Positions 3,931 to 21,815 of a stretch of DNA of 21,948 nucleotides are shown here, in pieces (positions within the stretch are counted from its first letter, which is position 1; each line of letters begins with the position of its first letter). The DNA comes from a virus. Where the stretch lies: positions 1 to 21,948 of the IMG/VR virus record IMGVR_UViG_3300044911_001487, one strand, 5' to 3'. Made by a program: the position numbers and the translations under genes. The notes beneath the pieces were generated by a model. That model was not told the origin of the DNA. It did not search any database and saw only the letters and a program-made list of their open reading frames with translations.

Positions 3931-6900
3931 ATGCTACTTGAAATGGATGATGGCAGGTTCATAGATACCGCTACCGGGAAGACTGAAGGTAGGCTAGCGG
4001 ATGCCCCTACCACCACTCCTTTACGTAGTGGCCTACAAAATCAAATTGTTCCAGAAGGTGACCGTCTTGGCGGACTACTTCGTAACGCAACATGGGGGTT
4101 TAATTCTGCATTGTTCGCTTTGCCCGATGCTGCAACACTGGGCATAGGTAGAGCGTTGGGGATGAAAGAGCAGGACGTTTTTACGCTAGGTAAGTTCTTT
4201 AACAGGGGACAAGTAGCACCGCGTGACGCTAATGAACGCTACGCCCGTGCAATTGCAGAAGGCGTAGGGGGCACAATGCCCTTCACTGGCATTCTTGCTT
4301 GGGCAGCACGTGTTCGTCCAATGGTAACAACTGCGAAGACTGCTTCAACCGGCGTTCTGAAAGGCATTGCTGACGATGCCATTAAATTTGTGCAGAAGAG
4401 TCCCGGTCTTGCAGCCGGGATTGATATTGCGTTCGGTGCGGGATACGAAGGTATGCGTCAAGCAGTTACAGAAACTGTTAGTGATGACAACCCTAATAAG
4501 CAGCTGTACGAAAACCTGCTCCCCATGGGCGCATTTATTGGTTTGCCCTTGGCCGCAAATATGCTGCCCTCTGTTATGGCAGGAAAGGCCATAAAAAACA
4601 AGATCAATAGTGCTACAGCAGGGCTGGGCGAAGTAGATAACGAAGTTTTAGGGGAGTTAAAAGGTTTTTGGAAACTTCCGGGCGTTCGTATTGTTCCTAA
4701 ATTGTTGCTAAAGAATGCAGAGAAAAAGCTGGAGCAAGTCTTTGGCCCAATCGCCGAGAGCAAAGAAGCGCAGCAAGCACTTCGTCAACTTGAAGTAGCT
4801 TTGCAAGACCCCCGTGTAGCAGAGGCGGGATTTATTTTTGGCAAGGAAGGTACGCCGGGTTCTTTTGATATAGCAGAGTCAACAATGTACTCACCGCTAT
4901 TGTCCAAAAAAGCAGAACTCTTGCAGCAACTTGGGCCCAAAGAACTAGAAGCAACTAGGGTGCGTATTAACGAGAACCAGCAAAAGCTGCAAGCGTTAAT
5001 GGATAACATTGCCCCAGAGGCTAGACAGTCCGTGTTTGATGCATTCCAAGCAGCGCAAGCAGAGCGTCAATCTTTCTTTGAGAATCTGCTCCGTGCACAG
5101 AAGGATATGACGGAAGCGGAAGTTTTGGCGGTGTCCGAGCGCCTCGGACCACAGAACGTGGACATGATCAATAACGAATTGCGTGGCGCATTGATGGGTG
5201 CCATGGAGTTCGACTATAAGATGCGGGACAACACGCTGCGTCTGATGGGTCTTCGTCAAGCGACAAGCCCTGAAGGCTTGCCTATGCCTACTCGGAATGA
5301 TGGGAGATCTTTGTTTCCTGCGCGGGACATGGAAAAGGCTGCAACGGGGCTTGTGGATAAGTACACACCGGAGCGTCCTTCGCTTCGCAATCCTATCCCA
5401 GAGCCAATTGTTTTCTTGCGTAACTTTATTCAGGGCCAACAGGCCACCCGAGATCGCCTAGAAGGACAGATGATCAAGGAACTGACTGATAATGAAGTTA
5501 GTAAACAACTTGGATCTTTGTCATTTGCCCTTCCGGCAGATATGGAAGAGGCTGTACGTAAGACAGCCCTAGATTTAGTACGAGGCAAACAAACTAAAGG
5601 GACTAGACGTAAATCTTCTTTGGCGGAGGCCAAGCTTCCACTAACAAGCGAAGGAGCAACTAAGATTCCTACCGGTGTTCCGAACAAATCTATCGCTATC
5701 AATCCTAGCCAGATTAAGAATGACGCTGCGCTTATCGCAGCGGATAATACCGCCATTAATATCAATCTGCCCGAGGCATTAGATTACTTAGCCTCTGCTG
5801 CACGGTTTCGCAATGATGCATTAGCACGATACAACTCTGCTATGGCCAAAGGCGGCACACGTCTAACTGATGCCCAGCGTACGCTGGATACCGGCACTGC
5901 GGTGTACAACGATATTGAGAAGCTGATCTTGGACCACGTGCCAAAGATTAAGACAGAATACGAAGGCATGAAGAATGTCTTGTCGGACTATCGTGCGGGT
6001 TTCGAGCAAAACCTGCCGCTACTCATGGCCCAGAAGACGGGTCGTGGCGATGCGTTCTTACTGGGTAACGAACAGTTGCTGCAAAAGGCATTTTCCAATG
6101 CGGGCAACCTGCGTCAGTTGCAGGTGTCCCTTGCTGGTACGCCGGGCTTTGATGATCTGCTGATGAAGGGCACGATTGATTGGCTGCGCACAAAAGGCGT
6201 GGTAAGCCCCGAGGGTTTGGTAGACCCCAAGAAGATTCGTTCTGTTCTGGACAAGAACAAGAACATCGTCGAGGCGCTGCCAGATACCGTACAGGCAAAA
6301 CTTCAGTCCGAAGTTGCATTGGCAAATGATTACGTAGCCCGCATGGGTGAGATAGACGCTCGTCGCGTAGCTGCTGGGAATGATGAATTAGATCAGGTAT
6401 TGAAACGCATAACACGCCCCGATGCTGATCCTCGTCAGACCTTGGCCAAGGCAGTGAAGGACCCGGCAACAATGCGGGTTCTAGTAGATGAACTGGGCAA
6501 AAATCCTGATCAACTTGCCGCGCTACGCCGTTCTATTTATGACATGGCCACTGAAGGTGCTACGGGTGGCGGTGCACTGAAAACATTCATTGACAACAAT
6601 GAGAAGTCGTTAAAGGTGTTGTTCAAAGACACACAGCATCTAGAAGATTTGAAGATGCTGGCTGACCTACAGCGCCGAGTTAATGCATTTGCGGATGTGA
6701 CAGGTCAGGTTCCTGCTTTTGACTCATTGGACGATACCCTGAAACGTGTGATGGGATCAGGTATTGGTGTCATGAGCACCACATACCGAAGTGTGGCAGA
6801 GGGCAGACTGTCCCCCACAACAGGGGCGATTGCATTCCTTGTGCGGCTTACTGGAGCCCTTGAGACTAATCTTTACAAGCGCCTTTTTACAAAAGCCTTG

Positions 6901-7356
6901 GAAGACCCTAACTTTGCACGTGCAGTCACACGCGTAAGCACCCCCGCAGACGGAGCAAGACTTAGCGCAGAGTTAGAAAAGATCGGCGTTCCGCGGTCCA
7001 TGCTGCAAACCCGCGTGGATCGTACAGCACGGCAGGAGCTTTCCCAGTTTGTAATGGGAGACCAAGAAACGCCTATCCCCGGAATGGCGCAGGCTCCTGT
7101 TGTTTCACGTGAAACAGCGGCATCAATGCTGCGGGCATTGCCTCCAGCGCCGCCGACCACGGGCCTTGCATTACTGAAAGAGAACGCGGCACTGCCTGTT
7201 GGACCTCCGCCTAATCTTCAGCGTACGAGAGATATTCCATTGATGTACCCAGCATTGTTCCCGAACGATCCTATCAGTGGATTACTCGAGCAGCGTAGGC
7301 AGCAGGTACAACAAGGGCAACCGATGCAACCAATGCAGCCTTTACCACAACAGTGA
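3931..7356 (+). CDS. very large phage structural protein, probable internal virion/ejection protein
   Basis: ATG at 3931 is preceded by GAGG with a 7-base spacer (GAGGTATTTAAATG), 11 bases after the upstream gene. The 1141-residue product has several Gly/Ala-rich, weakly hydrophobic segments in its first 220 residues (for example near 111-128, 157-172 and 199-218). These could insert into or contact a membrane. A long helical charged body follows, and a Pro/Gln/Met-rich tail ends in QQGQPMQPMQPLPQQ. No transglycosylase or protease motif was found. Large size, amphipathic N-terminus and position next to the lysis genes suggest an ejected core protein, which is inference. It ends with a tandem TGATGA. 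Confidence 0.85.
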   Translation: MLLEMDDGRFIDTATGKTEGRLADAPTTTPLRSGLQNQIVPEGDRLGGLLRNATWGFNSALFALPDAATLGIGRALGMKEQDVFTLGKFFNRGQVAPRDANERYARAIAEGVGGTMPFTGILAWAARVRPMVTTAKTASTGVLKGIADDAIKFVQKSPGLAAGIDIAFGAGYEGMRQAVTETVSDDNPNKQLYENLLPMGAFIGLPLAANMLPSVMAGKAIKNKINSATAGLGEVDNEVLGELKGFWKLPGVRIVPKLLLKNAEKKLEQVFGPIAESKEAQQALRQLEVALQDPRVAEAGFIFGKEGTPGSFDIAESTMYSPLLSKKAELLQQLGPKELEATRVRINENQQKLQALMDNIAPEARQSVFDAFQAAQAERQSFFENLLRAQKDMTEAEVLAVSERLGPQNVDMINNELRGALMGAMEFDYKMRDNTLRLMGLRQATSPEGLPMPTRNDGRSLFPARDMEKAATGLVDKYTPERPSLRNPIPEPIVFLRNFIQGQQATRDRLEGQMIKELTDNEVSKQLGSLSFALPADMEEAVRKTALDLVRGKQTKGTRRKSSLAEAKLPLTSEGATKIPTGVPNKSIAINPSQIKNDAALIAADNTAININLPEALDYLASAARFRNDALARYNSAMAKGGTRLTDAQRTLDTGTAVYNDIEKLILDHVPKIKTEYEGMKNVLSDYRAGFEQNLPLLMAQKTGRGDAFLLGNEQLLQKAFSNAGNLRQLQVSLAGTPGFDDLLMKGTIDWLRTKGVVSPEGLVDPKKIRSVLDKNKNIVEALPDTVQAKLQSEVALANDYVARMGEIDARRVAAGNDELDQVLKRITRPDADPRQTLAKAVKDPATMRVLVDELGKNPDQLAALRRSIYDMATEGATGGGALKTFIDNNEKSLKVLFKDTQHLEDLKMLADLQRRVNAFADVTGQVPAFDSLDDTLKRVMGSGIGVMSTTYRSVAEGRLSPTTGAIAFLVRLTGALETNLYKRLFTKALEDPNFARAVTRVSTPADGARLSAELEKIGVPRSMLQTRVDRTARQELSQFVMGDQETPIPGMAQAPVVSRETAASMLRALPPAPPTTGLALLKENAALPVGPPPNLQRTRDIPLMYPALFPNDPISGLLEQRRQQVQQGQPMQPMQPLPQQ

Positions 7357-9426: not shown

Positions 9427-9587
9427 AGACTTTGATTGCACTTATTGCGTTTGTGCCCCTCATTCTGTTTGCGGCTGAGACCAAGAAGGTCTGCCATAAG
9501 GAGAAGCAAAAGGGAAAAGAAGTTGAGGTATGCAAAATGGTCAAGGTCCATAAAAAATTGGATGGTGCCAAGGTACCGCCAAAATGA
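9423..9587 (+). CDS. 54-residue exported protein with two cysteines
   Basis: This small gene starts at ATG 9423 (ATGA overlap with the upstream stop) and ends at TGA 9587, which again overlaps the next start as ATGA. The product opens MKTLIALIAFVPLILFAAE, a clean Sec signal peptide with likely cleavage after AA near residue 18. A highly basic mature part of about 36 residues with two Cys (VCHKEK and VCKM) and many Lys follows. A single disulfide in the periplasm is plausible. Perfect nesting between two genes by 4-base overlaps argues that it is real despite its length. No family was recognised. A role in lysis, for instance periplasmic control of endolysin or holin, is only suggested by position. 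Confidence 0.75.
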   Translation: MKTLIALIAFVPLILFAAETKKVCHKEKQKGKEVEVCKMVKVHKKLDGAKVPPK

Positions 9588-10069
9588 CCGCCTTCCTGAA
9601 CCCTTGGGTAATTCTAAGCCTCGTCTTAGCGATTGTCGGGGCGTTCGGGGGCGGGTACTATAAAGGCAATTCTGCTGGACAGGCAGAAGTGCAACAGAAA
9701 TGGGACAAGGAAAAGACTGAGCAATATGCGGCTCATGCCGAGGCGCAAGAAGCAGCTAGAGCACGGGACCAAAACCTTCAGATTCAAGCCGACCGGCTGC
9801 GGGAGGAAAAGGATAATGAGATCAGAAATCTTAATGCTCGGGCTACCGCTCTTTCTAACAGCTTGCGCGACAGGCCGTCCCGCACCACCATTACCAGTAC
9901 CGTGCCCAGTGCCTCCAGCGCTGGCTGCGCCCCCACAGCATGTACTGGAGCAGGACTTTCTAAAGAGGATGGAGAGTTTCTTGCAAGGGAAGCTGCCAGA
10001 GGAGCAGAAGCCGTCGCCCTCCTCAAGCAGTGCTACGCCCAGTACGAAACCATAAAAAAAGGACCCTAA
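9584..10069 (+). CDS. Rz-like inner-membrane spanin
   Basis: The 161-residue product has one N-terminal transmembrane segment (about residues 8-25, WVILSLVLAIVGAFGGGYY). A long charged helix rich in Ala, Glu, Gln, Lys and Arg follows (about 30-95, probable coiled coil), then a Ser/Thr-rich linker with two Cys near 114-119 and a short helical C-terminus. This is the architecture of an i-spanin, which spans the periplasm and, with its lipoprotein partner, fuses inner and outer membranes in the last step of Gram-negative lysis. The partner gene is nested in another frame of its 3' half. It starts at an ATGA junction and ends at a TAATG junction. Presence of a spanin pair implies a Gram-negative host. 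Confidence 0.85.
   Translation: MTAFLNPWVILSLVLAIVGAFGGGYYKGNSAGQAEVQQKWDKEKTEQYAAHAEAQEAARARDQNLQIQADRLREEKDNEIRNLNARATALSNSLRDRPSRTTITSTVPSASSAGCAPTACTGAGLSKEDGEFLAREAARGAEAVALLKQCYAQYETIKKGP
9816..10055 (+). CDS. Rz1-like outer-membrane spanin lipoprotein, nested in the Rz-like gene
   Basis: ATG at 9816 is preceded by GGAGG (9802-9806) with a nine-base spacer, in the +1 frame of the spanin gene above. The 79-residue product begins MRSEILMLGLPLFLTAC, a lipoprotein signal with lipobox LTAC and Cys17 as the lipid site. The mature part is very Pro-rich at first (RPAPPLPVPCPVPPALAAPP), as in lambda Rz1, then a helical segment and a Ser/Pro tail. The frame stays open upstream to about 9633, but that extension lacks a start with a signal and is just overlap with Rz-like coding. 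A fully embedded Rz1 is the lambda arrangement. Confidence 0.88.
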   Translation: MRSEILMLGLPLFLTACATGRPAPPLPVPCPVPPALAAPPQHVLEQDFLKRMESFLQGKLPEEQKPSPSSSSATPSTKP

Positions 10070-10734
10070 TGTACCTGACCAGCAAAATTCCTTACTTTAA
10101 ATGTTGGGTAAGGAAAGAGTTTACAAACGGTCATCAGAACTACCACGGCGAATACATCCATGCATTAGCGGTTGCCGTTACAACAATGCCCGATAGATGT
10201 TTGAGCTTTCAGGTTATTTTCACCGGATGCGAGGCCGATGATGGTAGCCAAGAAAACGTCCATGGAGGTGCAATGTGGGCGCGTATGCCTATCACTGCAT
10301 TGGTAGGAGACATACCACTAGGAACGTGGCCCGAGCGTATGCCTACGCATTTCGCGCAGCCTTGGGACTGTAATTCGTACAATCACGCCGTTCTAAGTAT
10401 TGATCGGGCAAAGCCCTCTCCGTGGCGATGCAAGATAAACAATGAGTTCTTTACTGGGCGATATTTGTTCACCGTCGATTATGCAGAGAGTGAAGTATCT
10501 GAAGACCCTTCCCAGCACAAGCAAAGTCATGTATTAATACTGACAGACGCGGGAAAATGGACCGGCAATATAGTGGCGTTACCGAACAATCGTGTGCGTG
10601 TCACGAGCCCAGCATACTGGGTCACGGGCGAAGGAGCACCTGATTTTAGACCAAGTCAATGGATTCATTGTGCCGAGCAAGATGATTCATACATGGACCC
10701 TGAGGCTACTTTTAATAACTTGTATAAGGAGTAG
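10069..10734 (+). CDS. conserved phage protein of unknown function
   Basis: ATG at 10069 shares its first base with the spanin stop (TAATG) and follows AAGGA by five bases, so it is preferred to the in-frame start at 10030. The 221-residue soluble protein looks globular and beta-rich, with many aromatic and Cys residues and segments such as VHGGAMWARMPITALVGD and NRVRVTSPAYW. I recall close patterns in uncultured marine phage proteins lacking a function. No catalytic motif, signal peptide or membrane segment is visible. It lies after the lysis genes and before two tiny basic proteins, so it might be a late virion component or host-interaction protein. This is not decided by the sequence. Confidence 0.85.
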   Translation: MYLTSKIPYFKCWVRKEFTNGHQNYHGEYIHALAVAVTTMPDRCLSFQVIFTGCEADDGSQENVHGGAMWARMPITALVGDIPLGTWPERMPTHFAQPWDCNSYNHAVLSIDRAKPSPWRCKINNEFFTGRYLFTVDYAESEVSEDPSQHKQSHVLILTDAGKWTGNIVALPNNRVRVTSPAYWVTGEGAPDFRPSQWIHCAEQDDSYMDPEATFNNLYKE

Positions 10735-11186: not shown

Positions 11187-11885
11187 CTATGTGTTTTCGT
11201 CCGTAGGCTCTCTTTTTTCGTATTGCTCTACGCGCCGCATCCACTCATCCTGATAGCCCTGAAACTCACGGCCACAGGTGACAAACTCCTGCACTTCGCC
11301 ATTCTGCGCCACCATCAGAATCACCCCGTGATCGATGGTGGTGCCGTGGACCTTGTTATGTGCAGCGGCATACGCGGCTAACTGAACAAAGTAATCCTCA
11401 ATCCACTCCCGCTTCTTCATCCTATTGGCTTGCTTGAAGTCCAAGATGGATGGCTGTCCCTTGTACACGGCAATGCAATCCGTTGTCCCGGCATAGCGGT
11501 CCGGATAGTACAGGGGGACTTCTGAGCCCCAGACTTCGTAGACATTGGGGAAGAAGTGCTCAAGCAGCGCGTAGCCCATACGGTAGCCCTTGACCTGTAG
11601 CCAAGTGCGAGGTGGCTCGAGCCCACGATTCAAGAGTAATCGCTCGATGACACTGTGCATATGAGTGCCGACAGAAGCCGCGTCATTACGAATCTTCTCC
11701 GCAGCCTCCTTGCCGACACGGTCCTCCCACTCCTTTAGGAAGGTCGCGTCCTTTGTCGCACTGAGGATTGTAGTGACACTGGGCAGAGCAATCGTGTTCT
11801 CGCCCTTGTACTGACGGCCATTTTCACCGTCGATGCGCTCGAGCTTTTCGTACTTGAACTTCTTGCGTATGGGTATGAGTTGCAT
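11187..11885 (-). CDS. PD-(D/E)XK nuclease, RecB/Cas4-like
   Basis: Two starts are possible: ATG at 11897, inside the helicase gene, or ATG at 11885, which forms a TAATG junction and has AAAGGA eleven bases upstream. I chose 11885 (232 residues, starting MQLIPIRKKFKYEKLE). With numbering from 11897, the nuclease core is visible as GTHMH near 77-81, Glu126, TTD with Asp140, LDFK with Asp153 and Lys155, and QLAAY at 172-176. These are the motifs of RecB/Cas4-type metal-dependent exonucleases. The N-terminal PSVTTIL segment is typical of phage members. It is the second gene of a leftward pair with a SNF2 helicase, so joint DNA end processing, recombination or host DNA degradation is likely. Specificity cannot be told. 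Confidence 0.85.
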   Translation of the reverse strand: MQLIPIRKKFKYEKLERIDGENGRQYKGENTIALPSVTTILSATKDATFLKEWEDRVGKEAAEKIRNDAASVGTHMHSVIERLLLNRGLEPPRTWLQVKGYRMGYALLEHFFPNVYEVWGSEVPLYYPDRYAGTTDCIAVYKGQPSILDFKQANRMKKREWIEDYFVQLAAYAAAHNKVHGTTIDHGVILMVAQNGEVQEFVTCGREFQGYQDEWMRRVEQYEKREPTDENT

Positions 11886-13336
11886 TAGATGAGCCATCCT
11901 TTGATTTCTTCGCCCAGCACAGCTGATGCGATATTGATCTTGTTACGAAGTGCCTTGACGATATGCTCGTCCACCGTATTGGTGGCAATCAAATCGATGT
12001 AGGTGACCTTCTCGGTTTGCCCGATACGATGAGCGCGGTCCTCGGACTGCAACCGCTTTTCAAGGTCAAAGCTGTTGCTGTAGTAGACCACGGTGTGCGA
12101 AGACACCAGTGTCAGACCATAGCCCCCCGTAGTCGGATTCCCCACAAAAAAGCGTAACTCACTTTTTGGATCGGAGAACTTTTCCACAATCTCCTGCCGC
12201 TCATCCGCATCGGTGTCCCCGTAGTACGTAGCTACAGAGGTCATGCCGTATTCCTTCTGGATGGCCAGCTTGATATCTTGGATGTTCTTGCGGTAGTTTG
12301 CCCAGATGATCACCTTGCCGTCTGACTCTGCCAGCAGGTCCATAAGCTCGGACAGGCGGTTGTTTGGGAGATCAATCTCCTGACCATCATCCAGCTTCAC
12401 GTAGCCACAGGCAATTTGGTGTAGCCGCATCAACTGCGTCAAGGCATTGTTGGTGCTGACCAACCCCTGATCCAAGACAGAAAGCGCCATTAGCTTCATC
12501 TGCTCATAAGCCTTCTTCTGCTCAGAGGTCAGGTCCACATCCCGGCGCAGGTAAATCTTGTCCGGCAGGTCAAGGCACTCGTCTTTAGTAACGCGGAACG
12601 CGAACCTATCCAACTTGTCCTTCAGTTCATCCAAGTGCCGGTAACCCACCACCTGCTTGAATGTGTGGGTAGGCATCTTGCGTTCTACAAGGATCGCGTA
12701 CCGGGCTTGGAAAGCGTAGTAACTGTTGTAGTTGAGGCAACTTTCGCCAAGGAAGTCGCACTGGGAATACAGGTCCAGCGGGCTTTTGGTGACCGGGGAG
12801 CCTGTGGCAATACGCCTGTACCGCGCTTCTTTGCCAATCTTGACGATGGACTTGGTCCGCTTGGCGGTCGGGGTCTTGATGGTGGTGGACTCATCAATCG
12901 CCATGAAAGCATCCGTCACCCGCAGGAATATCTTTGCAAACTGCTGGCCCTTCTCCGTGCTGAATGCCTCGATGTTCATGATCAGAATGCGCAGGTCATC
13001 CACGGCGTTGAACATGGCCTCCATTTCCATCTTCTCTGCTTTGCGTGGGGTAGGATTCCAGCACGCCATCTTGTAGCTGATGTGCTCCGGCATGTGCTTC
13101 GGAATCTCGGACTTGTACCAATTCCTGTACACGCCTTTGGGTGCAACGATCAGCATTGCATTGATCTTGCCTTTGTCATAGAGCATTGCTGCGTTGTTGA
13201 TCAGCATGAAGCTCTTACCTGTGCCCATTTCAGCAAACAAAGCCGATGTCGGATGCTCCCAGAACCGCTGCAAATAGGCGGCTTGATGGACAAACGGTTT
13301 ATTTTTGAATGGGTATTTCTCTATGAAATAATCCAT
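11885..13336 (-). CDS. SNF2-type superfamily 2 helicase
   Basis: The 483-residue protein has the full order of SF2 motifs. These are HQAAYL near residue 17, Walker A EMGTGKS at 36-42, a Walker B variant IDES at 147-150, ATGSP at 177-181, and the SNF2 motif VI EDRAHRIGQ at 432-440. The Arg finger and RIGQ pattern place it with SNF2/SWI2-like ATPases that move along double-stranded DNA. Its length covers only the two RecA-like domains, so it is a minimal form without chromatin-binding domains. The start ATG is preceded by AAAGGA on the minus strand. It shares one base or 13 bases with the nuclease gene behind it. Phage roles for such enzymes include replication restart and recombination, but which applies here is unknown. 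Confidence 0.92.
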   Translation of the reverse strand: MDYFIEKYPFKNKPFVHQAAYLQRFWEHPTSALFAEMGTGKSFMLINNAAMLYDKGKINAMLIVAPKGVYRNWYKSEIPKHMPEHISYKMACWNPTPRKAEKMEMEAMFNAVDDLRILIMNIEAFSTEKGQQFAKIFLRVTDAFMAIDESTTIKTPTAKRTKSIVKIGKEARYRRIATGSPVTKSPLDLYSQCDFLGESCLNYNSYYAFQARYAILVERKMPTHTFKQVVGYRHLDELKDKLDRFAFRVTKDECLDLPDKIYLRRDVDLTSEQKKAYEQMKLMALSVLDQGLVSTNNALTQLMRLHQIACGYVKLDDGQEIDLPNNRLSELMDLLAESDGKVIIWANYRKNIQDIKLAIQKEYGMTSVATYYGDTDADERQEIVEKFSDPKSELRFFVGNPTTGGYGLTLVSSHTVVYYSNSFDLEKRLQSEDRAHRIGQTEKVTYIDLIATNTVDEHIVKALRNKINIASAVLGEEIKGWLI

Positions 13337-13422: not shown

Positions 13423-13752
13423 GTGAATAGAGTGTTTGTCGTCCAAGAGATGCCAAACCACGACATTTCCCCAGCGATGAAGTTTGGGAAGATCGAGGTT
13501 TTGTTGCCATCTAATACACAGATCGCTTTTTCCACCGTGCCTGTTGTCAGAAAGCTACGACGCAAGCTCATGGACTACGATTGTGGCGATTATATTTTGC
13601 TAACTGGGGACCCTGTGGCTATTGGGCTTGCCTGTGCCATAGCGTCTTTCAATAACGCCGGGCGGTACACGGCGCTAAAATGGGACCGCCGGGAGATGCT
13701 ATACATCCCGGTCGTGATCGATGTAACTGAGAGAGGAGAAAGTGATGAGTGA
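13423..13752 (+). CDS. small phage protein of unknown function, first gene of the replication operon
   Basis: GTG at 13423 follows AAAGGAG (13408-13414) by eight bases. The product is 109 residues, starting MNRVFVVQEMP, with alternating hydrophobic strands, an IEVLLPS segment, a helical KLRRKLMDYD part and GDPVAIGLACAIAS near the middle. It ends with VIDVTERGESDE. I recall similar small proteins beginning NRVFVVQEP in the early regions of environmental phages, always unassigned. The GDP..IG.A.AIA segment resembles a small nucleotide- or metal-binding turn only superficially. It overlaps the next gene by eight bases and is thus part of the same transcript. Confidence 0.85.
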   Translation: MNRVFVVQEMPNHDISPAMKFGKIEVLLPSNTQIAFSTVPVVRKLRRKLMDYDCGDYILLTGDPVAIGLACAIASFNNAGRYTALKWDRREMLYIPVVIDVTERGESDE

Positions 13753-14302
13753 TATGAATGACCTCTTTGAAGAGGACGCAGGTGCATTGCAGGTCAAGAA
13801 TGAAGACTTGTCTTCTGTAGGTGCTTTGGCTAAACGTGCAAAGCAGCTGGAAAAGGAAATCGATGAGATTGAGTTGGTCCTGAAGGAGCGCAAGGATCAG
13901 CAGCGCAAACTCTTGGAAGAATCTATTCCAGCCATGTTGCAGGAACTGGGCATGAAGAAGTTCACCATGGCCGATGGCAGCACCATTGAGATCAAACCAT
14001 TCTATGGTGCAAGCATCAAGGAAGAGAATCGTGCCGTTGCCTACGAGTGGCTTCGCAAGAATGGCTACGATGACATTATCAAGAATACCGTCTCTGTGCG
14101 ATTTGGTCGGAACGAAGACAAATTGTGCGAGAACCTGATCAACCAACTCCGTGAGCAAAGCTATCCTGTCGAGCAAACGGAGAAGATTGAGCCCCAAACG
14201 CTGAAGGCATGGGCGAAAGAAATGGTGGAACGCGGCGTTGAGTTCCCTACCGAAACCTTTGGTCTGTACACAGGCCACAAGGCGACAATCAAGTCTGCTT
14301 AA
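13745..14302 (+). CDS. coiled-coil phage early protein of unknown function
   Basis: ATG 13745 is chosen over GTG 13742 because AGGAG sits six bases upstream. The 185-residue product has an acidic start (MSDMNDLFEEDAG), a coiled coil of heptads rich in Lys/Glu/Leu at about residues 22-60, a small beta unit (FTMADGSTIEIKPF), and a helical C-terminal part ending in FGLYTGHKATIKSA. The pattern of coiled coil followed by MKKFTMADG recurs, as I recall, in phage proteins found next to ssDNA-binding proteins. A nuclease-inhibitor or replication accessory role has been proposed for coiled-coil proteins like Gam, but there is no diagnostic motif here. It is 23 bases ahead of the SSB-like gene. Confidence 0.85.
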   Translation: MSDMNDLFEEDAGALQVKNEDLSSVGALAKRAKQLEKEIDEIELVLKERKDQQRKLLEESIPAMLQELGMKKFTMADGSTIEIKPFYGASIKEENRAVAYEWLRKNGYDDIIKNTVSVRFGRNEDKLCENLINQLREQSYPVEQTEKIEPQTLKAWAKEMVERGVEFPTETFGLYTGHKATIKSA

Positions 14303-14325: not shown

Positions 14326-15099
14326 ATGGCGAAGAATGAACTCGCAACCAAGAAAGAAGGCGCATTAGCCGTTGCAATGTCCTTTGAAGAAGACGCGCAA
14401 CAAGGGGGCTTTGACAATATGGGTCAGGAAGATTTTGCATTGCCCTTCCTGCGTCTATTGACAAACACTAGCCCTGAAGTTGGCGAAGTTGAAGGTGCAA
14501 TGCCCGGAATGATCTACAACACAGTAACAGGACAGCTTTACGATGGCAAAAAAGGCATTACCGTCATCCCCTGCGCTTACATCAGGCAGTACATCGAATG
14601 GGCCCCGCGTGGGTCGGGGTCGGGCGCACCGGTCGCTATCTATTCCGCAACGAGCGATATCCTTAGCAGAACGCACCGGGAACCGGGCGATAATAAAGAT
14701 TATCTCGACAACGGTAACTACATTGAAAACACTGCCAATCATTACGTGATGATTGTAGGTGATGACGATGTGCCTGAACCTGCACTGATCACCATGAAGT
14801 CCACGCAGCTAAAGAAGTCGCGTAAGTGGAACAGCATGATGATGTCGGCAAAGATGGTAGGTAAGAACGGCCCTTACACACCACCGATGTTCTCGCAACT
14901 CTATCGCCTGACCACTCAGGCAGAGTCGAACGACAAAGGCAAATGGTTTGGTTGGGAAGTCGAGCGTATCGGCGCGATTGAAGAACCGAACCTGTACCTT
15001 GCTGCGAAAGGTTTCTCTCAGAGCATCAGTTCTGGTGAAGTCAAGGTAAAGCATTCTGCGGATGACATCATGGAAGGTAGCGGCGCTGCACCGTTCTGA
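14326..15099 (+). CDS. probable phage ssDNA-binding protein
   Basis: ATG at 14326 follows AAGGAG by eight bases. The 257-residue product has a central beta-rich domain from about residue 40 to 235, including ALPFLRLLTNTSPEVGE, a KKGITVIPC strand and LYRLTTQAES. It ends with an acidic tip, SADDIMEGSGAAPF. A flexible acidic tail with a terminal Phe is a hallmark of SSB proteins such as T7 gp2.5 and bacterial SSB, where it docks polymerase and helicase. I recall closely similar phage proteins with FAIPFLRILQ motifs annotated this way by context. The gene precedes the primase in a replication operon. The SSB call is inferred from the tail and context, not from a confirmed OB fold. Confidence 0.8.
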   Translation: MAKNELATKKEGALAVAMSFEEDAQQGGFDNMGQEDFALPFLRLLTNTSPEVGEVEGAMPGMIYNTVTGQLYDGKKGITVIPCAYIRQYIEWAPRGSGSGAPVAIYSATSDILSRTHREPGDNKDYLDNGNYIENTANHYVMIVGDDDVPEPALITMKSTQLKKSRKWNSMMMSAKMVGKNGPYTPPMFSQLYRLTTQAESNDKGKWFGWEVERIGAIEEPNLYLAAKGFSQSISSGEVKVKHSADDIMEGSGAAPF

Positions 15100-15201: not shown

Positions 15202-16734
15202 ATGGCCGACATAACAAAATTCAAAGCAATATTCAGTGGATTGGATATTGCCTATGGCACATACGTCATTAAGGGCGAACGGGGGGATGGCAAACAAAAT
15301 GGGCAAGCTACGGTTGTACGTAAACCTCCATCGGATGACCTTTGGGAGCGTCATCTTGCTGGTATTGAGCCTTCCCTTGGTATTATCCCTATTCGCGCTG
15401 ACAACACTTGTGTATGGGGCTGCATCGATATTGACCAGTATCCTATTGACCATCGAGGCTTGGTTGAGAAGATAGCGTCACTCAAGCTCCCCCTTATCGT
15501 CTGCCGCAGTAAATCTGGCGGCGCTCACTGCTTTTTATTCACCACTGAACCTATCCCTGCGCGGGAGATGCAAGACTACCTGAAAGCTTGCGCTGCGCTG
15601 TTGGGTGAGGCAGGGCGAGAGATATTCCCCAAGCAAGCAGAAATTCTCGTGGACCGCGGAGACACGGGAAACTTTTTGAACCTTCCCTACTTCGCGGGGG
15701 ATAACGGGACACGATATGCGTTTAACGCGGATGGTTCGGCAGCGACACTCGAAGAATTCTATGCGTTGTATGAAGCGTTCGCACAGACTCCTCCGCTTTC
15801 GTTCCCGGAAGCACCCAAGGTTGCGGAAGCGCCGATTAAAGATGGTCCCCCGTGCCTACAGGCTCTCTGTAGTCAAGGATTCCCAGAAGGTACTCGAAAT
15901 AACGGTCTCTTCAATGTTGGCATCTATCTTAAAAAGCTTGCGCCCGCAAGTTGGGAAGACAAAGTAGTTGAACATAACCAAAAATATTTTGCTCCACCGC
16001 TTCAAAATAATGAGGTGCAACTTGTTATCAAGCAATTGGGGAAGAAGGATTATCGTTACAAGTGTAAGGATGCCCCGCTCAATTCGTTCTGCAACGCTGG
16101 TCTATGCCGAACAAGGAAATATGGCATCGGCGGTAATGGTCCTGATTCGCCAACACTTTCATCGCTCTCAAAGTATGCCAGTGAGCCACCACTCTGGTTC
16201 CTTGACATCAACGGTCGGCGGATCGAACTCGAAACGGACAGTCTCTTTAATCAAGCTGCGTTTCAGAAAGCGTGTCTTGAACGTCTTAACCTACTCCCAC
16301 CCACGCTCAAAAAGATGGATTGGGAGAACATGCTTAACGGACTTCTTAAAGAGATGGTCGAGACTGAACAAATCTCGGAAGCCAGCGAGGACACGTCGGT
16401 TACGGGCCGTTTCATGGACCTCCTTGAAGAGTTTACTACGCACATGCAGCAAGCCATGGACCGTGAGGAGCTCCTCATGGGGAGACCGTGGGTTGACGCT
16501 GAAGATGGCCGGTGTCATTTCCGGATAAAGGACCTCGATGCGCATCTGCTGCGCAACAACTTCAAGGGAATGACTGCACCCAAGATGGCCCAGCGACTGC
16601 GGGACATGGGCGGCGAACCTATCAGCCTGTTCTTGAAAGGCAGAACTGTACGCTGCTGGCGTATACCTGCGTTCGCAAAACAGGATGCACCATTTACTAC
16701 AGAGACAGTGCGACAGCAGGGGAGCCCATTTTGA
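15202..16734 (+). CDS. archaeo-eukaryotic type DNA primase (TOTE/AEP family)
   Basis: The 510-residue protein carries the catalytic signature of AEP primases: CIDID with Asp76 and Asp78, SKSGGAHCFLF with His109 in the sGGxH motif, and a third region with FPKQAE and DTGNFLNLPYF at about 143-164. The N-terminal fold thus makes primers from nucleotides on single-stranded DNA. The second half has a PriCT-like helical part (EGTRNNGLFNVGIYLKK). It also has a cysteine cluster (Cys288, Cys297, Cys302, with Cys218 or Cys223) that may bind zinc or an iron-sulfur cluster. No helicase domain is fused. The gap of 102 bases upstream gives no clear promoter. The 3' end overlaps the next start by TTGA. Confidence 0.88.
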   Translation: MADITKFKAIFSGLDIAYGTYVIKGERGDGKQNGQATVVRKPPSDDLWERHLAGIEPSLGIIPIRADNTCVWGCIDIDQYPIDHRGLVEKIASLKLPLIVCRSKSGGAHCFLFTTEPIPAREMQDYLKACAALLGEAGREIFPKQAEILVDRGDTGNFLNLPYFAGDNGTRYAFNADGSAATLEEFYALYEAFAQTPPLSFPEAPKVAEAPIKDGPPCLQALCSQGFPEGTRNNGLFNVGIYLKKLAPASWEDKVVEHNQKYFAPPLQNNEVQLVIKQLGKKDYRYKCKDAPLNSFCNAGLCRTRKYGIGGNGPDSPTLSSLSKYASEPPLWFLDINGRRIELETDSLFNQAAFQKACLERLNLLPPTLKKMDWENMLNGLLKEMVETEQISEASEDTSVTGRFMDLLEEFTTHMQQAMDREELLMGRPWVDAEDGRCHFRIKDLDAHLLRNNFKGMTAPKMAQRLRDMGGEPISLFLKGRTVRCWRIPAFAKQDAPFTTETVRQQGSPF

Positions 16735-18458
16735 AGATTCCACGTATGCCCAAGCCGCCTACGCTGTCTTCCTTGCGTCCTGCAAAGCGGACCGTGTATC
16801 GCGGGTCCACCAAGAAATTACCCCCGGTTAAGCCACTGCCGCCCCTAGTGAAGGTGAAGGGCGTGACTGAACGCAGGGATCGTCTCACGCACATTGAGCA
16901 CATAGAAGATCGCTTCATCAAAGGCGGCAACATAGATTTGTCTTACACATTGCGGACGATGACAGAAGTCCACAATATGCTAGTCGCGTCGATGGAGGAT
17001 AGACATTACAAATCAAGTGCCATCATTACGGAGAAGTTTGACGGCAGTCCTAGCATTGTGTTCGGCCATGATAAAGAGACGGGTAGATTCTTTGTTGCTA
17101 CAAAATCCTTCTTCAGCAAATCCCCGAAGCTGAACTTTAGTGAGGAAGATATTCGCTTAAACCACGGTTACTCTTCTAACCTTCTAGACAAGCTGACCGC
17201 GGCGCTGAAGTATCTACCGAAGATCACACCAGAGACAGGCATCTTTCAGGGCGACTTGATGTACGTGCAGGGCATGAATGTTGAAACGGCGGCTGACAAG
17301 ATTTACTTTACCGCAAACACCGTCAACTACTCATGCTACTCCGACACCTTCATGGGCAAGAGAATCTATGATTCTCGGATAGGTATCGCGATACACACGC
17401 AACACATTACTGATCGGCATATACCTGCGGACCTTACGCTCTTTAATAAAGATGAAGATGTCGTTGTTATTGACCCCCGGATCAATATCAATCGTGCATA
17501 TTACCCTGCGGAGCACCAGAAAGAGTTCTTGACGCTGCTACAGGAGATCAACAACACGCCATTAACGCAGTCTGAAGTTAATGAGGTAATGCGGCACTCG
17601 GTCAAGTTGATGCAGTACATCAATAAGATCGTTAAAGGCACTGCGGTCCCGCGTGAAGAATCAGAGTTCGCTTCACCTATATTTGATGCTTTCTTCTTTG
17701 TGCATTCGCATCTGCAAGCAGCTAAAAAATTACTGAACGATGCACTGTCCAATACGCGGCAGTTCTATACGGAGATCAATGGCCAAGAAACTAAGGGTGA
17801 GGGCTTCGTTGTTATCTACGAGCAGAGAATGAATAAGATTGTAGATAGAGAAGAATTTAGCCGACAGAACTTCATGCGGCAGACTGAATTAAAAGAAGGC
17901 GCGAAGACTACCGTATTTGCTTTTGCGCGAATGAATCCTCCTACACGTGGCCATGAGCATTTGATTCAACAAGTAAAGCGGCTGGCAAAAGAACACAAGG
18001 CAGGGCACACCATTGCATTGAGCCCTTCTCATGGCATAGACAACCCCTTATCTGCCTCACTCAAGTTTGAATACCTAAAGGAGTTGTTCCCCGGTACTGA
18101 CTTTTATATGCGGAAGAGTTCAGCAGGATTCATCCGCAGTCTATGCGACATCTATGAAGAGGGTACGGAGCATCTTATTCTTGTGTCGGGTGACGATAGG
18201 ATGGAGTCCTATCAGAGTTACCTTGAACTAAATGGCAAGGACAACTTCTTTCACTTCAAAAAGATATCGTTCGTTTCCGCAGGAGCAAGGAACCCTGAGG
18301 GGGAGGGCATTGAAGCCGTCTCTGGTACAAGGGTTCGCCAATATGCTGATGACAATCAATTCGATAAATTCTTTAAGGACCTGCCCAGCACTGCGACAGA
18401 AGAGTTAGCCAAGCGCTTGTTTGAAGATGTGCGGAAGGGGCTTATAAAGTATGACTGA
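16731..18458 (+). CDS. fusion of a ligase-like (KxDG) domain and an NMNAT/cytidylyltransferase-like domain
   Basis: TTG at 16731 is taken as start because GGAG lies six bases upstream and the codon overlaps the primase stop as TTGA. The frame is open further upstream but that part is antiphase to the primase. The product is 575 residues. Domain 1 (about 50-380) shows EKFDGSPSIVFG with Lys102 as the possible adenylated lysine, TKSFF at 124-128, GIFQGDL at 170-176 and EGFVVIYE at 357-364, in ligase-family order. It resembles DUF6267 proteins of large phages. Domain 2 (about 388-575) has ARMNPPTRGH at 399-408, the HxGH-type nucleotide site with Thr-Arg-Gly-His, and SGTRVR at 531-536, the SGTxxR signature of NMNAT-like nucleotidyltransferases. 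The role may be nucleic-acid repair or NAD-related metabolism, but is undetermined. Confidence 0.82.
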   Translation: MKIPRMPKPPTLSSLRPAKRTVYRGSTKKLPPVKPLPPLVKVKGVTERRDRLTHIEHIEDRFIKGGNIDLSYTLRTMTEVHNMLVASMEDRHYKSSAIITEKFDGSPSIVFGHDKETGRFFVATKSFFSKSPKLNFSEEDIRLNHGYSSNLLDKLTAALKYLPKITPETGIFQGDLMYVQGMNVETAADKIYFTANTVNYSCYSDTFMGKRIYDSRIGIAIHTQHITDRHIPADLTLFNKDEDVVVIDPRININRAYYPAEHQKEFLTLLQEINNTPLTQSEVNEVMRHSVKLMQYINKIVKGTAVPREESEFASPIFDAFFFVHSHLQAAKKLLNDALSNTRQFYTEINGQETKGEGFVVIYEQRMNKIVDREEFSRQNFMRQTELKEGAKTTVFAFARMNPPTRGHEHLIQQVKRLAKEHKAGHTIALSPSHGIDNPLSASLKFEYLKELFPGTDFYMRKSSAGFIRSLCDIYEEGTEHLILVSGDDRMESYQSYLELNGKDNFFHFKKISFVSAGARNPEGEGIEAVSGTRVRQYADDNQFDKFFKDLPSTATEELAKRLFEDVRKGLIKYD

Positions 18459-19953
18459 CATATGCAAAGTCTTCGGGCCCCCCGGATCAGGGAAGACCAC
18501 GTACCTTTTGAATCGTGTCGAGCAGGAGCTGGAGAGCGGCGTTCAGTCGGGCAGGATCGGTTACTTCTCGTTTACCCGAAAGGCTGCGAACGAAGCCAGA
18601 GATCGTGCTATAGCCAAGTTCCCGCACCTGAGTGAGAAGACCGACTTCCCTTACTTCCGCACACTACACAGTCTCGCTTTCCGTTGCCTTGGCACAAAAG
18701 CAGATGACATGATGCAGCCGGAGCATTATGCTGAGTTTGCCCAGCAAACAGGTATCGTGCTGGATGTATCCAAAGATGATGAGGAAGGCTATGCAAAGGC
18801 AGACAATCCTATTCTCAATGAGATCAACCTCGCCCGCATTCGAGGGGTGGATCTTAGAGAGCATTACAACCAATCAGGATTGGATATTGAGTGGCACCAC
18901 TTTGAGTTTGTGGAGCGAAGCTACCGACACTACAAAACCGCTCGTAGTCTACTTGACTTCACAGACCTCCTTGAGATGGCAGTAGTAGATTCTGCTCGTC
19001 TACCGTCTCTTGAAGTCTTAATTATCGATGAAGCACAGGATTTATCCCGGCTTCAATGGCAACTTGTCGAAATCTTAGTCAGCAAATCCCAGCGGGTTTT
19101 CATTGCCGGGGACGATGACCAAGCCGTATTCACGTGGGCCGGGGCCGATGTGAAATCCTTCCTCGAATTCAAAGGTGATATTCATGTCCTCCAACAGTCC
19201 TACCGAATCCCATCTTCAGTCCACCAATTTGCAAATAACATTGTCAAAAGAATCAGAAATCGCCAAAGTAAGACATGGAAACCACGTGACTTTGTTGGCT
19301 CCGTCCGACAGTACTACCGCTTCGAAGATGTGCCTGTTAGTGACGGAGAATGGCTCATTCTCGCTAGTACAAATTACCTGCTCAATCCAATACACGAGTG
19401 GCTCAAGTCAAACGGAGTTCTTTTTGAACGTAACAGCGTCCCCAGCCTCTCACCCCAAATGCTCAAAGCCGTCATCGATTGGGAGAGGCTCCGCAAAGGC
19501 CTCGCGCTAGGATTAAACGACACCCAGAACATCTACAAGTATCTGGGACCAAGCTTCGTGGCTCGGGGCTTTAAGAACTTCAAGGGCGACCCGGATGTGA
19601 TCGAGTATGATTTACCTACCCTGAGTAAGCACTATGGACTAATGACCGATGCTGTCTGGCATGAAGCCTTACTTAGGATCAGTGAGGACAAGCGAGACTA
19701 CCTCCGCGCCGTGCTGCGCCGGGGCTACAAGATTTCCAATGCGGGCCAGATCAAACTCTCCACCATCCACGGAGCCAAAGGCGGGGAAGCCGACAATGTC
19801 CTATTGATGATGGACATCTCGCCTAAATTTGCTAAAGATTATGCTGTCAACTCAGACAGCGTGAACCGGCTATTCTATGTTGGCGTGACACGGGCAAAAC
19901 AAACGCTGCACTTAGTATTACCAAAACAACAAGACAAAGGATTTCGCCTGTGA
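18451..19953 (+). CDS. UvrD/Rep-like superfamily 1 DNA helicase
   Basis: The 500-residue protein has all SF1A motifs: GPPGSGKTT at 9-17, FSFTRKAANEAR at 39-50, TLHSLAFR at 71-78, IIDEAQD at 191-197, GDDDQAVFTWAGAD at 220-233, QQSYRIP at 248-254, LSTIHGAKGGEADNV at about 436-450, and FYVGVTRAKQ at 475-484. It would unwind DNA 3' to 5' at the fork using ATP. It is about 200 residues shorter than UvrD, so most of the 2B subdomain is missing. The gene overlaps the upstream gene by eight bases, and the polymerase start by GTGA, so helicase and polymerase are probably made together. Confidence 0.93.
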   Translation: MTDICKVFGPPGSGKTTYLLNRVEQELESGVQSGRIGYFSFTRKAANEARDRAIAKFPHLSEKTDFPYFRTLHSLAFRCLGTKADDMMQPEHYAEFAQQTGIVLDVSKDDEEGYAKADNPILNEINLARIRGVDLREHYNQSGLDIEWHHFEFVERSYRHYKTARSLLDFTDLLEMAVVDSARLPSLEVLIIDEAQDLSRLQWQLVEILVSKSQRVFIAGDDDQAVFTWAGADVKSFLEFKGDIHVLQQSYRIPSSVHQFANNIVKRIRNRQSKTWKPRDFVGSVRQYYRFEDVPVSDGEWLILASTNYLLNPIHEWLKSNGVLFERNSVPSLSPQMLKAVIDWERLRKGLALGLNDTQNIYKYLGPSFVARGFKNFKGDPDVIEYDLPTLSKHYGLMTDAVWHEALLRISEDKRDYLRAVLRRGYKISNAGQIKLSTIHGAKGGEADNVLLMMDISPKFAKDYAVNSDSVNRLFYVGVTRAKQTLHLVLPKQQDKGFRL

Positions 19954-21815
19954 AGACCATGCCACTATTCCCAATGCAAAGTGATTGGGTTGCGCCGGAT
20001 TCATTTCCAAACTTATCGAACGCAAAGGAGATTGCAATTGACCTCGAAACTTGTGACCCTAACATGGAGTCGATGGGCCCCGGTTGGCCTCGGCGCGACG
20101 GGTATATTGTTGGGTACGCTGTTGCTGTGGAAGGCTGGGCTGGATATTTTCCTGTCGCTCATGGTGGTGGTGGCAATCTGGATAAACGGCGCGTCGAGCG
20201 TTGGATTATGGATGTTCTTGCATCCCCTGCTGACAAAATCATGCACAACGCGGCGTACGACTGCGGCTGGCTCAAAGCGTCAGGCTTCACCATCAACGGG
20301 AGAATCATCGACACCATGATCGCGGCCCCGCTGCTCGATGAAAATCGATTCAGCTTTGCCTTAAACAGTCTGGGATTCGATTACCTCAAAGAAACCAAGA
20401 GCGAAGCGGGCTTAAAGCAAGCCGCCGGGGACTTCGGTGTGCATCCAAAGAAGGAACTCTGGAAGCTCCCTGCCATGTATGTGGGCAATTACGCAGAGCA
20501 AGATGCGGCGCTGACCCTAAAGCTCTGGCAATACTTCAAAGTCAAGCTTCGACAGGACGATGTCGAATCCATCTTCGACCTCGAAACGCGGCTCCTGCCT
20601 GTCCTTTTAGGGATCACGGAACGCGGCATCCGCTTCGACCGCAACAAGTGTGAGCAGACTATTGATGCGCTGATCAAGCGGGAAAAAGAACTCCATACCC
20701 AGATCAAAACCCTCTCCGGGATCGGCGTGGACATCTGGGCCGCTGCCAGTATCGCTAAAGCCTTCGACAAGCTGAACGTAACGTACCCCAAGACCGACAC
20801 CGGCTTACCAAGCTTCACCAAATCCTTCTTGGATGAATGCCCGCACCAGATCGGCAAAATGATCATCGAGGCTCGAGAGACCAATAAGACGCACAGCACG
20901 TTCCTCCAGCCCTACCTGAACTTCTCCGCCAAAGATGGGCGCATCCATCCGCACGTCAACCAGCTACGCAACGACGAAGGCGGCACCGTGTCTGGCCGCT
21001 TATCCATGAACAACCCGAATCTCCAGCAGGTTCCTGCCCGGCACGAGATCATCGGACCGATGGTCCGAAGTTTATTTTTGCCCGAAGAGGGTCAAATATG
21101 GGCCTCAAACGACTTTTCCTCGCAAGAACCGCGTTTATTAGTGCACTACGCCTCATTATTGGACCTACCCGGCGCAGAAGTCATGGTAGATGCCTACCGA
21201 GCCAATCCCGACACCGACTTCCACCAAATGGTGGCCGACATGGCGGGCATCAAACGTAAAGCCGCCAAGACCATCGGTCTGGGCCTGATGTACGGCATGG
21301 GCGTGGCCAAGCTATCGAACCAGCTGGACCTAACCCACGATGAAGCCAAGGAACTCATTCAAACCTTCCACACCAAGGTGCCCTTCCTTAAAGGCACGGT
21401 GAACGCGGTCATGCGCCGCATCGAACATCCCGCCTCTGGTGGCGCTATCCGCACCCTCTTGGGCCGCAAATGCCGCTTCCCGCTCTGGGAACCCATGGAG
21501 TGGGGCAGCAACAAAGCACTCCCTTACGAGCAAGCAGTCGTGGAGTACGGCTCAAGGATCAAGCGCAGCGGGACCTACAAGGGATTAAATAGGCTCATCC
21601 AAGGATCAGCAGCAGACCAAACTAAAATGGCCATGGTGGCCCTCCACGAAGCCGGGGAGACCCTTCTTTTACAGGTGCACGATGAGATTGTGTTGAGTGT
21701 CGCGGACCGGGGACAAGCAGAACGGGCCGCGGAGATCATGGCCAACTGCGTCAAGATGGAAATCCCGAACCGAGTGGATGTGGAGATGGGCCCCAACTGG
21801 GGCGAAGCGAAGTAA
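19950..21815 (+). CDS. family A DNA polymerase with 3'-5' exonuclease
   Basis: Start GTG 19950 overlaps the helicase stop as GTGA (an in-frame ATG at 19959 is an alternative). The 621-residue protein has a DEDDy proofreading exonuclease: IDLE with Asp31 and Glu33, NAAYD at 100-104, and YAEQDA at 181-186. The polymerase domain has motif A NDFSSQEPR (Asp388), motif B KRKAAKTIGLGLMYG (Arg436, Lys440, Leu444, Tyr448) and motif C QVHDE (Asp578). There is no 5'-3' exonuclease domain, as in other phage PolA enzymes. The residue aligned to E. coli Phe762 is Leu444, a variant reported as common in marine virioplankton. It is the replicative polymerase of this phage. Confidence 0.95.
   Translation: MKTMPLFPMQSDWVAPDSFPNLSNAKEIAIDLETCDPNMESMGPGWPRRDGYIVGYAVAVEGWAGYFPVAHGGGGNLDKRRVERWIMDVLASPADKIMHNAAYDCGWLKASGFTINGRIIDTMIAAPLLDENRFSFALNSLGFDYLKETKSEAGLKQAAGDFGVHPKKELWKLPAMYVGNYAEQDAALTLKLWQYFKVKLRQDDVESIFDLETRLLPVLLGITERGIRFDRNKCEQTIDALIKREKELHTQIKTLSGIGVDIWAAASIAKAFDKLNVTYPKTDTGLPSFTKSFLDECPHQIGKMIIEARETNKTHSTFLQPYLNFSAKDGRIHPHVNQLRNDEGGTVSGRLSMNNPNLQQVPARHEIIGPMVRSLFLPEEGQIWASNDFSSQEPRLLVHYASLLDLPGAEVMVDAYRANPDTDFHQMVADMAGIKRKAAKTIGLGLMYGMGVAKLSNQLDLTHDEAKELIQTFHTKVPFLKGTVNAVMRRIEHPASGGAIRTLLGRKCRFPLWEPMEWGSNKALPYEQAVVEYGSRIKRSGTYKGLNRLIQGSAADQTKMAMVALHEAGETLLLQVHDEIVLSVADRGQAERAAEIMANCVKMEIPNRVDVEMGPNWGEAK

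Follow-up and report, generated by a model that had tools for sequence, protein, structure and literature searches.

In phage T4, Pnkp and Rnl1 form an end-healing and end-sealing set directed against host ribotoxins, and the same genome also carries Rnl2. Surveys of phage RNA ligases list kinases, HAD phosphatases and nucleotidyltransferases among their partners (PMC7824862). For cyanomyoviruses, a 2010 review reported that no homologue of the g30 DNA ligase had been found, left open the existence of a distant one, and listed S-PM2_138 among the signature genes of cyanophages without known function (PMC2984593). S-PM2_138 and the syn9 gene pair gp183-gp184 belong to the same family (DUF6267/PHROG 455) and have the same pair of domains as the protein described here; Pfam and PHROGs give no function for this family, and its ligase fold goes unremarked there. 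We analysed a 21,948-base virus record from IMG/VR (IMGVR_UViG_3300044911_001487; this whole stretch is referred to as the window), and in particular the gene at positions 16731-18458 (+), which encodes a fusion of a DUF6267 domain with a HIGH-superfamily nucleotidyltransferase domain (P0001). Judging by structural models and motif order, DUF6267 is probably a branch of the covalent nucleotidyltransferase superfamily that had gone unrecognised. We put the probability at about 0.55 that it represents a new group of polynucleotide ligases that serve phage replication, recombination or repair, with the HIGH enzyme as a partner.

Results

The gene is one uninterrupted frame of 575 amino acids (aa) plus stop, and its translation contains every motif quoted in the initial annotation, which had been made from the letters alone: EKFDG (with Lys102), TKSFF, QGDL, EGFVVIYE, MNPPTRGH and SGTRVR. 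The family name DUF6267, which that annotation had suggested, is right: residues 52-390 match PF19782 with a Pfam E-value of 1.3e-61 (209 bits versus the gathering cut-off of 27), and the fusion protein matches PHROG 455 with an E-value of 5e-75. These matches, the assignment of the C-terminal domain to PHROG 3041 'cytidyltransferase' (E-value 3e-42) and the near-invariance of key residues put the motifs beyond chance. We modelled each half separately from an alignment of the window and locus proteins. For the N-terminal model (predicted local distance difference test score, pLDDT, 94; predicted template modelling score, pTM, 0.89), the best VIA-align match is the RNA ligase of Naegleria gruberi (Z-score 9.6, 178 residues, 3.6 Å), and further matches include T. 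brucei REL1 (Z 8.4), T4 Rnl2 (8.1), T4 Rnl1 (7.9), fungal Trl1 (7.9) and many DNA ligases. All of the best 50 rows are RNA or DNA ligases, in agreement with the ligase-type fold that had been proposed for this half. In BFVD, a set of predicted viral structures, most of the named rows ranking below DUF6267's own relatives are RNA ligases, together with a capping enzyme and an NAD-dependent DNA ligase. Motifs III (QGDL), IV (EGFV) and V (KIVDR) lie on strands of the model in the canonical order.

Conservation of motifs I-IIIa and of the HIGH domain was counted among hits gathered by search patterns that did not require the motif concerned, whereas the counts for motifs IV and V come from an alignment of 53 rows (A3) whose selection required EG. 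All features of the fusion gene are on the plus strand. A basic, proline-rich tail (residues 1-51, 16731-16883; 15 Lys/Arg, 10 Pro, one Glu and one Asp), which is not conserved in distant relatives, precedes the core with the ligase fold (residues 52-390, 16884-17900). The first helix of the core carries the family-specific signature HxxHxED (residues 54-60, 16890-16910), of which H54, H57 and E59 are kept in 94/94 hits. Motif I, KFDG (Lys102-Gly105, 17034-17045), places the predicted acceptor lysine for adenosine monophosphate (AMP) directly after a beta strand; Lys102, Asp104 and Gly105 are present in all 94 alignable hits. It is followed by motif III-like QGDL on a beta strand (residues 173-176, 17247-17258; D175 in 95/95) and by the motif IIIa-like stretch IGIAIHTQHI (residues 217-226, 17379-17408), a strand in the model, with H222 in 93/93 alignable hits. 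Between motifs IIIa and IV the secondary structure of the model includes a helical insert (residues 260-342, 17508-17756), which, to judge from the topology, is unlike known ligases. Motif IV, EGFV (residues 357-360, 17799-17810), has E357 and G358 in 53/53 rows of A3, the rows having been chosen with EG, and motif V-like KIVDR (residues 369-373, 17835-17849) has K369 and R373 in 53/53. In a relative that is 98% identical (L011), a frameshift at about position 2380, just before motif V, splits the two halves into separate frames; it could be a sequence error.

With the nick-sealing RNA ligases (Naegleria Rnl, T4 Rnl2 and TbREL1), DUF6267 shares the common ligase fold and the succession of motifs I, III, IIIa, IV and V. 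It differs from them in having the HxxHxED helix and the helical insert before motif IV, in lacking the Rnl2-type C-terminal domain, and in showing no detectable profile similarity to Rnl1 or Rnl2. The ends of the structural alignment (model residue 1 corresponding to chain residue 144) suggest that HxxHxED would fall near the N-terminal R149 of the Naegleria ligase. Searches of PDB sequences with the N-terminal domain, either as a single protein or as profiles, gave nothing above noise, and the fusion protein has no Pfam match to Rnl2 (PF09414) or Rnl1 (PF09511) at E-values up to 1, nor to the ATP-dependent DNA ligase (PF01068) or LigA (PF01653) families. The kinship of DUF6267 to known ligases thus appears to be structural only, resting on the modelled fold and the motif order.

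The C-terminal HIGH domain (residues 388-575, 17892-18455; model pLDDT 92.5) resembles PPAT (Z 14.4) and NMNAT (Z 13.7) about equally, so the NMNAT-like fold suggested by the initial annotation was recovered. Both the [HT]xGH and [ST]x[ST]xxR motifs are found on a Rossmann-like fold, as is characteristic of the HIGH superfamily: the first within RMNPPTRGH (residues 400-408, 17928-17954; R400 and H408 in 65/65), the second as SGTRVR (residues 531-536, 18321-18338; S531 and R536 each in 61 of 62 covering hits). Lys445 (18063-18065; 65/65) is a candidate active-site lysine. None of the hits has lost Lys102 or His408, and the N-terminal fold is ligase-like; the initial annotation had named the opposite of either as grounds for abandoning its interpretation. 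PHROG 395, which bears the same annotation as PHROG 3041, is also matched, the only Pfam match is a weak one to CTP_transf_like, and searches of PDB sequences return PPAT, NadR and UPF0348. The database label of the fusion is 'Cytidyltransferase-like domain-containing protein'. The fold and the RxNPPTxGH and SxTxxR motifs are common to NMNAT, NadR and PPAT, but the phage family has its own features, GxDR and a SAGxRDP loop, and stays below all equivalog cut-offs. For the curated NMNAT models the distance is large: P0001 has no match, and its S-PM2 homologue, whose best NCBIfam match is NMN/NaMN (nicotinamide/nicotinic acid mononucleotide) adenylyltransferase (E-value 3e-6), scores 27.5 bits versus the required 112. 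These matches therefore single out no substrate for the HIGH domain.

The fusion is not a peculiarity of this phage. S-PM2 carries it as gene 138 (S-PM2_138), with about 33% identity, and a search for split versions, which the initial annotation had advised, was productive: syn9 gp183 and gp184 correspond to the two halves as adjoining genes, a form typical of cyanomyoviruses. DUF6267 is found in about 460 phage isolate records, mostly with a HIGH enzyme gene adjoining. Relatives from IMG/VR comprise 94 usable loci, most of them at 26-40% identity; the two domains are fused in 21 of these, and in 45 a HIGH gene is located nearby on the same strand. Counting only loci with a hit or with at least 2 kb of downstream sequence, fused or linked pairs make up 66/75. 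The HIGH domain comes first in two loci (L040 and L092), giving at least two fusion orders overall, L054 contains a different HIGH subfamily, and the architecture labels require five changes on the tree of DUF6267 domains. Since the pairing is general, the orders and subfamilies vary, and five changes are needed on the tree, the functional tie between DUF6267 and HIGH enzymes is older and broader than this single fusion. As a separate observation, many relatives have a small domain of the pattern GxIxxxGxNYV...(K/R)xW, located either behind the HIGH domain or in a gene of its own (L034, L050, L068, L095, L014 and L015); S-PM2d141 is such a stand-alone gene, labelled a possible cytitidyltransferase although it is without HIGH motifs. 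Two DUF6267 genes (L095 and L097) reside on contigs binned as Flavobacteriaceae and Aenigmatarchaeota genomes, which are probably phage contigs.

In the window, the gene belongs to a replication operon, as the initial annotation had it; its primase, helicase and polymerase neighbours are identified by Pfam and PHROG. The TTG start codon at 16731 overlaps the TGA stop (TTGA) of the upstream gene for an archaeo-eukaryotic primase (AEP) of the TOTE type (15202-16734, +; 4-nt overlap; PF22548, E-value 3e-12; PHROG primase, E-value 2e-97). This start is credible and probably right, because relatives keep a start codon at the same site (TTG in L003-L009, ATG in L010). Downstream, the stop codon is overlapped by 8 nt by the gene of a UvrD-type helicase (18451-19953, +; PF00580, E-value 9e-33), which in turn overlaps by 4 nt that of a family A DNA polymerase with a 3'-5' exonuclease domain (19950-21815, +; PF00476, E-value 5e-60). 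Owing to these end-to-end overlaps, the primase, fusion protein, helicase and polymerase form a tight set, and the gene order is identical in a relative on a 60 kb contig. In T4-like loci, the DUF6267 gene follows the gp41 and UvsX genes.

Other neighbours vary among relatives. P-loop kinases of the zeta/polynucleotide-kinase type are present in 18 loci, and in four of these the kinase forms one protein with the HIGH domain (as does the zeta-type kinase of L025, 6746-8626); a HAD phosphatase is present in 11, both of the tested ones matching PHROG 415 'polynucleotide kinase' best. HIGH domains are also fused to RimK ATP-grasp and Zn protease domains (L031, 7152-10148) and to a pol-beta nucleotidyltransferase (L050, 7788-10178). 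With regard to ligase content, neither Rnl1 nor Rnl2 is matched in 14 DUF6267 genomes, and DUF6267 is missing from 33 phage genomes that carry an Rnl. S-PM2 and syn9 lack a PF01068 DNA ligase, and none of the tested genomes has a LigA adenylation domain (PF01653).

Discussion

Computation gives us the folds, the residue conservation, the operon and the recurring domain pair, and from these we infer a ligase activity for the DUF6267 domain. Arguments for it, which tip the balance only slightly in its favour, are the fold itself, the ordered motifs with invariant lysines, the replication and UvsX context, the kinase and phosphatase neighbours, the mutual exclusion with Rnl1/2, and the lack of a PF01068 DNA ligase in S-PM2 and syn9. 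In the mechanism that we envisage, Lys102 would take AMP from a nucleotide cofactor, the AMP would be passed to a 5'-phosphate, and the latter would then be joined to a 3'-OH, sealing a break in phage nucleic acid. The HIGH domain would be a functional partner that either transfers AMP to a second phosphate substrate or undoes the adenylylation of abortive ends; it may feed, reset or complement the adenylation of Lys102. A nucleic-acid target is indicated by the basic tail as well as by the operon and the neighbouring genes. The operon would suit DNA, and the closest folds and the end-healing enzymes would suit RNA. Of the two functions considered in the initial annotation, the nucleic-acid route thus gains from gene context and the route through nicotinamide adenine dinucleotide (NAD) does not hold up well.

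Several observations weigh against a ligase. Foldseek searches of PDB gave weak results, the best rows being a DNA ligase (E-value 0.026) and T4 Rnl2 amid unrelated barrels. In hhalign comparisons, the N-terminal profile reached probabilities of only 0.1 and 1.3 with the Rnl2 and Rnl1 profiles; unrelated control profiles score alike, and sequence homology to ligases is therefore not claimed. Motif V is followed not by an OB or other nucleic-acid-binding module but by a single helix and then the HIGH domain. Only a minority of loci have kinase or phosphatase genes, and the window has none; RlaP, which usually accompanies RNA ligases, is missing from 22 DUF6267 records, and the exclusion between Rnl1/2 and DUF6267 may reflect lineage. 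Finally, a PF01068 DNA ligase is also present in 3/11 DUF6267 genomes.

The last observation leads us to reject the strict form of the idea that DUF6267 is just a substitute for an absent DNA ligase, since these three genomes have both. Likeness to the T4 gp30-type ligase consists of the expected KxDG lysine chemistry and the replication setting, but DUF6267 has neither the OB domain with motif VI nor a PF01068 match. Cyanophages seem to be short of a ligase, and the domain may nonetheless be regarded as a candidate for the missing enzyme; its ligase fold and fully conserved lysine make it a direct and testable one.

An alternative is that the enzyme repairs RNA, for example tRNA, as the sealing step of a set acting against host ribotoxins. 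In some relatives a kinase, a HAD phosphatase and a ligase-fold enzyme are indeed encoded close together, as in the T4 system of Pnkp and Rnl1, the best fold matches are RNA ligases, and Rnl1 and Rnl2 are absent from the same genomes. However, the proteins belong to families separate from those of T4 and come with an additional HIGH enzyme and without RlaP, the kinases may be of the zeta type with another substrate, no tRNA genes are found in the window or in the 60 kb of its close relative, and the gene sits in a DNA replication operon. We therefore consider RNA repair rather unlikely. RlaP was also considered as the pol-beta partner and rejected, given its absence from the DUF6267 records.

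It is tempting to speculate that the two domains instead form a self-recharging, NAD+-dependent adenylation enzyme, in which the HIGH domain, as an NMNAT, makes NAD+ from nicotinamide mononucleotide (NMN) and ATP, the ligase fold takes AMP from it, NMN is recycled within the chain, and HxxHxED holds the leaving group. The near-equal fold similarity to NMNAT, the best NCBIfam match of the S-PM2 homologue, the invariance and family specificity of HxxHxED, the involvement of two HIGH subfamilies in fusions and the HIGH-kinase fusions of L025 and L041, which recall NadR, are consistent with such a scheme. On the other hand, every NMNAT model stays below its cut-off, the adjoining kinases match Zeta_toxin/AAA_33 rather than the NadR kinase family, and the nearest folds are ATP-using RNA ligases; LigA is not among the best 50 VIA-align rows, which excludes nothing as to an NMN-binding Ia-like fold. 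An NadV-type NAPRTase is present in only 1/14 DUF6267 genomes. On balance, NAD+-dependent adenylation seems quite unlikely. A more specific version, a self-recharging ligase whose HIGH domain makes NAD+ or an analogue as dinucleotide donor and whose sealing by-product is re-made into that donor in one polypeptide, with HxxHxED as a new leaving-group site, is still more doubtful. The low NAPRTase count also led us to reject an NAD salvage set, such a role for the HIGH domain being weakly supported, and a role in anti-phage defence was rejected as there was no PADLOC match.

Also very improbable, in our judgement, is an AMP transferase acting on a small molecule or a protein, either in the virion or in rewiring of the host, with the HIGH domain making a nucleotide-linked donor: the fusions of HIGH domains to RimK ATP-grasp, Zn protease and kinase domains would suit it, but the gene belongs to a replication operon in this phage, and no enzyme with a ligase fold is known to us to act in this way. 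HIGH/NMNAT-like proteins have been detected in the virion proteomes of four cyanomyoviruses, which makes a virion role for the HIGH protein possible, although these lists hold the HIGH protein only and the authors allow for carry-over (PMC10665884).

Our search of the open-access literature found no paper that names DUF6267, describes a phage ligase-NMNAT fusion, or links S-PM2_138 with the missing g30 ligase of cyanomyoviruses. As the family and the fusion are already in databases, what is new is the recognition of these proteins as probable ligase-superfamily enzymes with an unusual architecture. The recurrent tie of DUF6267 with HIGH enzymes, in both fusion orders and across several HIGH subfamilies (at least two), would represent a novel way of coupling two chemistries of AMP transfer.

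Additional observations

Upstream of the primase, the window encodes a Pam3 gp34-like protein (14326-15099, +; PF23977, E-value 1e-67) and a Pam3 gp33-like protein (13742-14302, +; PF23984, E-value 1e-31). A Cas4-like exonuclease (PHROG 298) and an SNF2 helicase are encoded at 11187-13336 (-), on the strand opposite to the other replication genes. An Rz-like spanin gene (9584-10069, +; PHROG 1327) contains an inner frame (9633-10055, +) with a lipobox-like LTAC stretch, which is probably an embedded Rz1. It is followed by a gene for a 234-aa protein (10030-10734, +) that matches PHROG 3704 'ferredoxin' (E-value 1e-28) and has no Pfam match. Two very long proteins of 904 and 1141 aa (1205-3919 and 3931-7356, both +), which are without any PHROG match, are probably internal virion proteins; both are conserved in the 60 kb relative.

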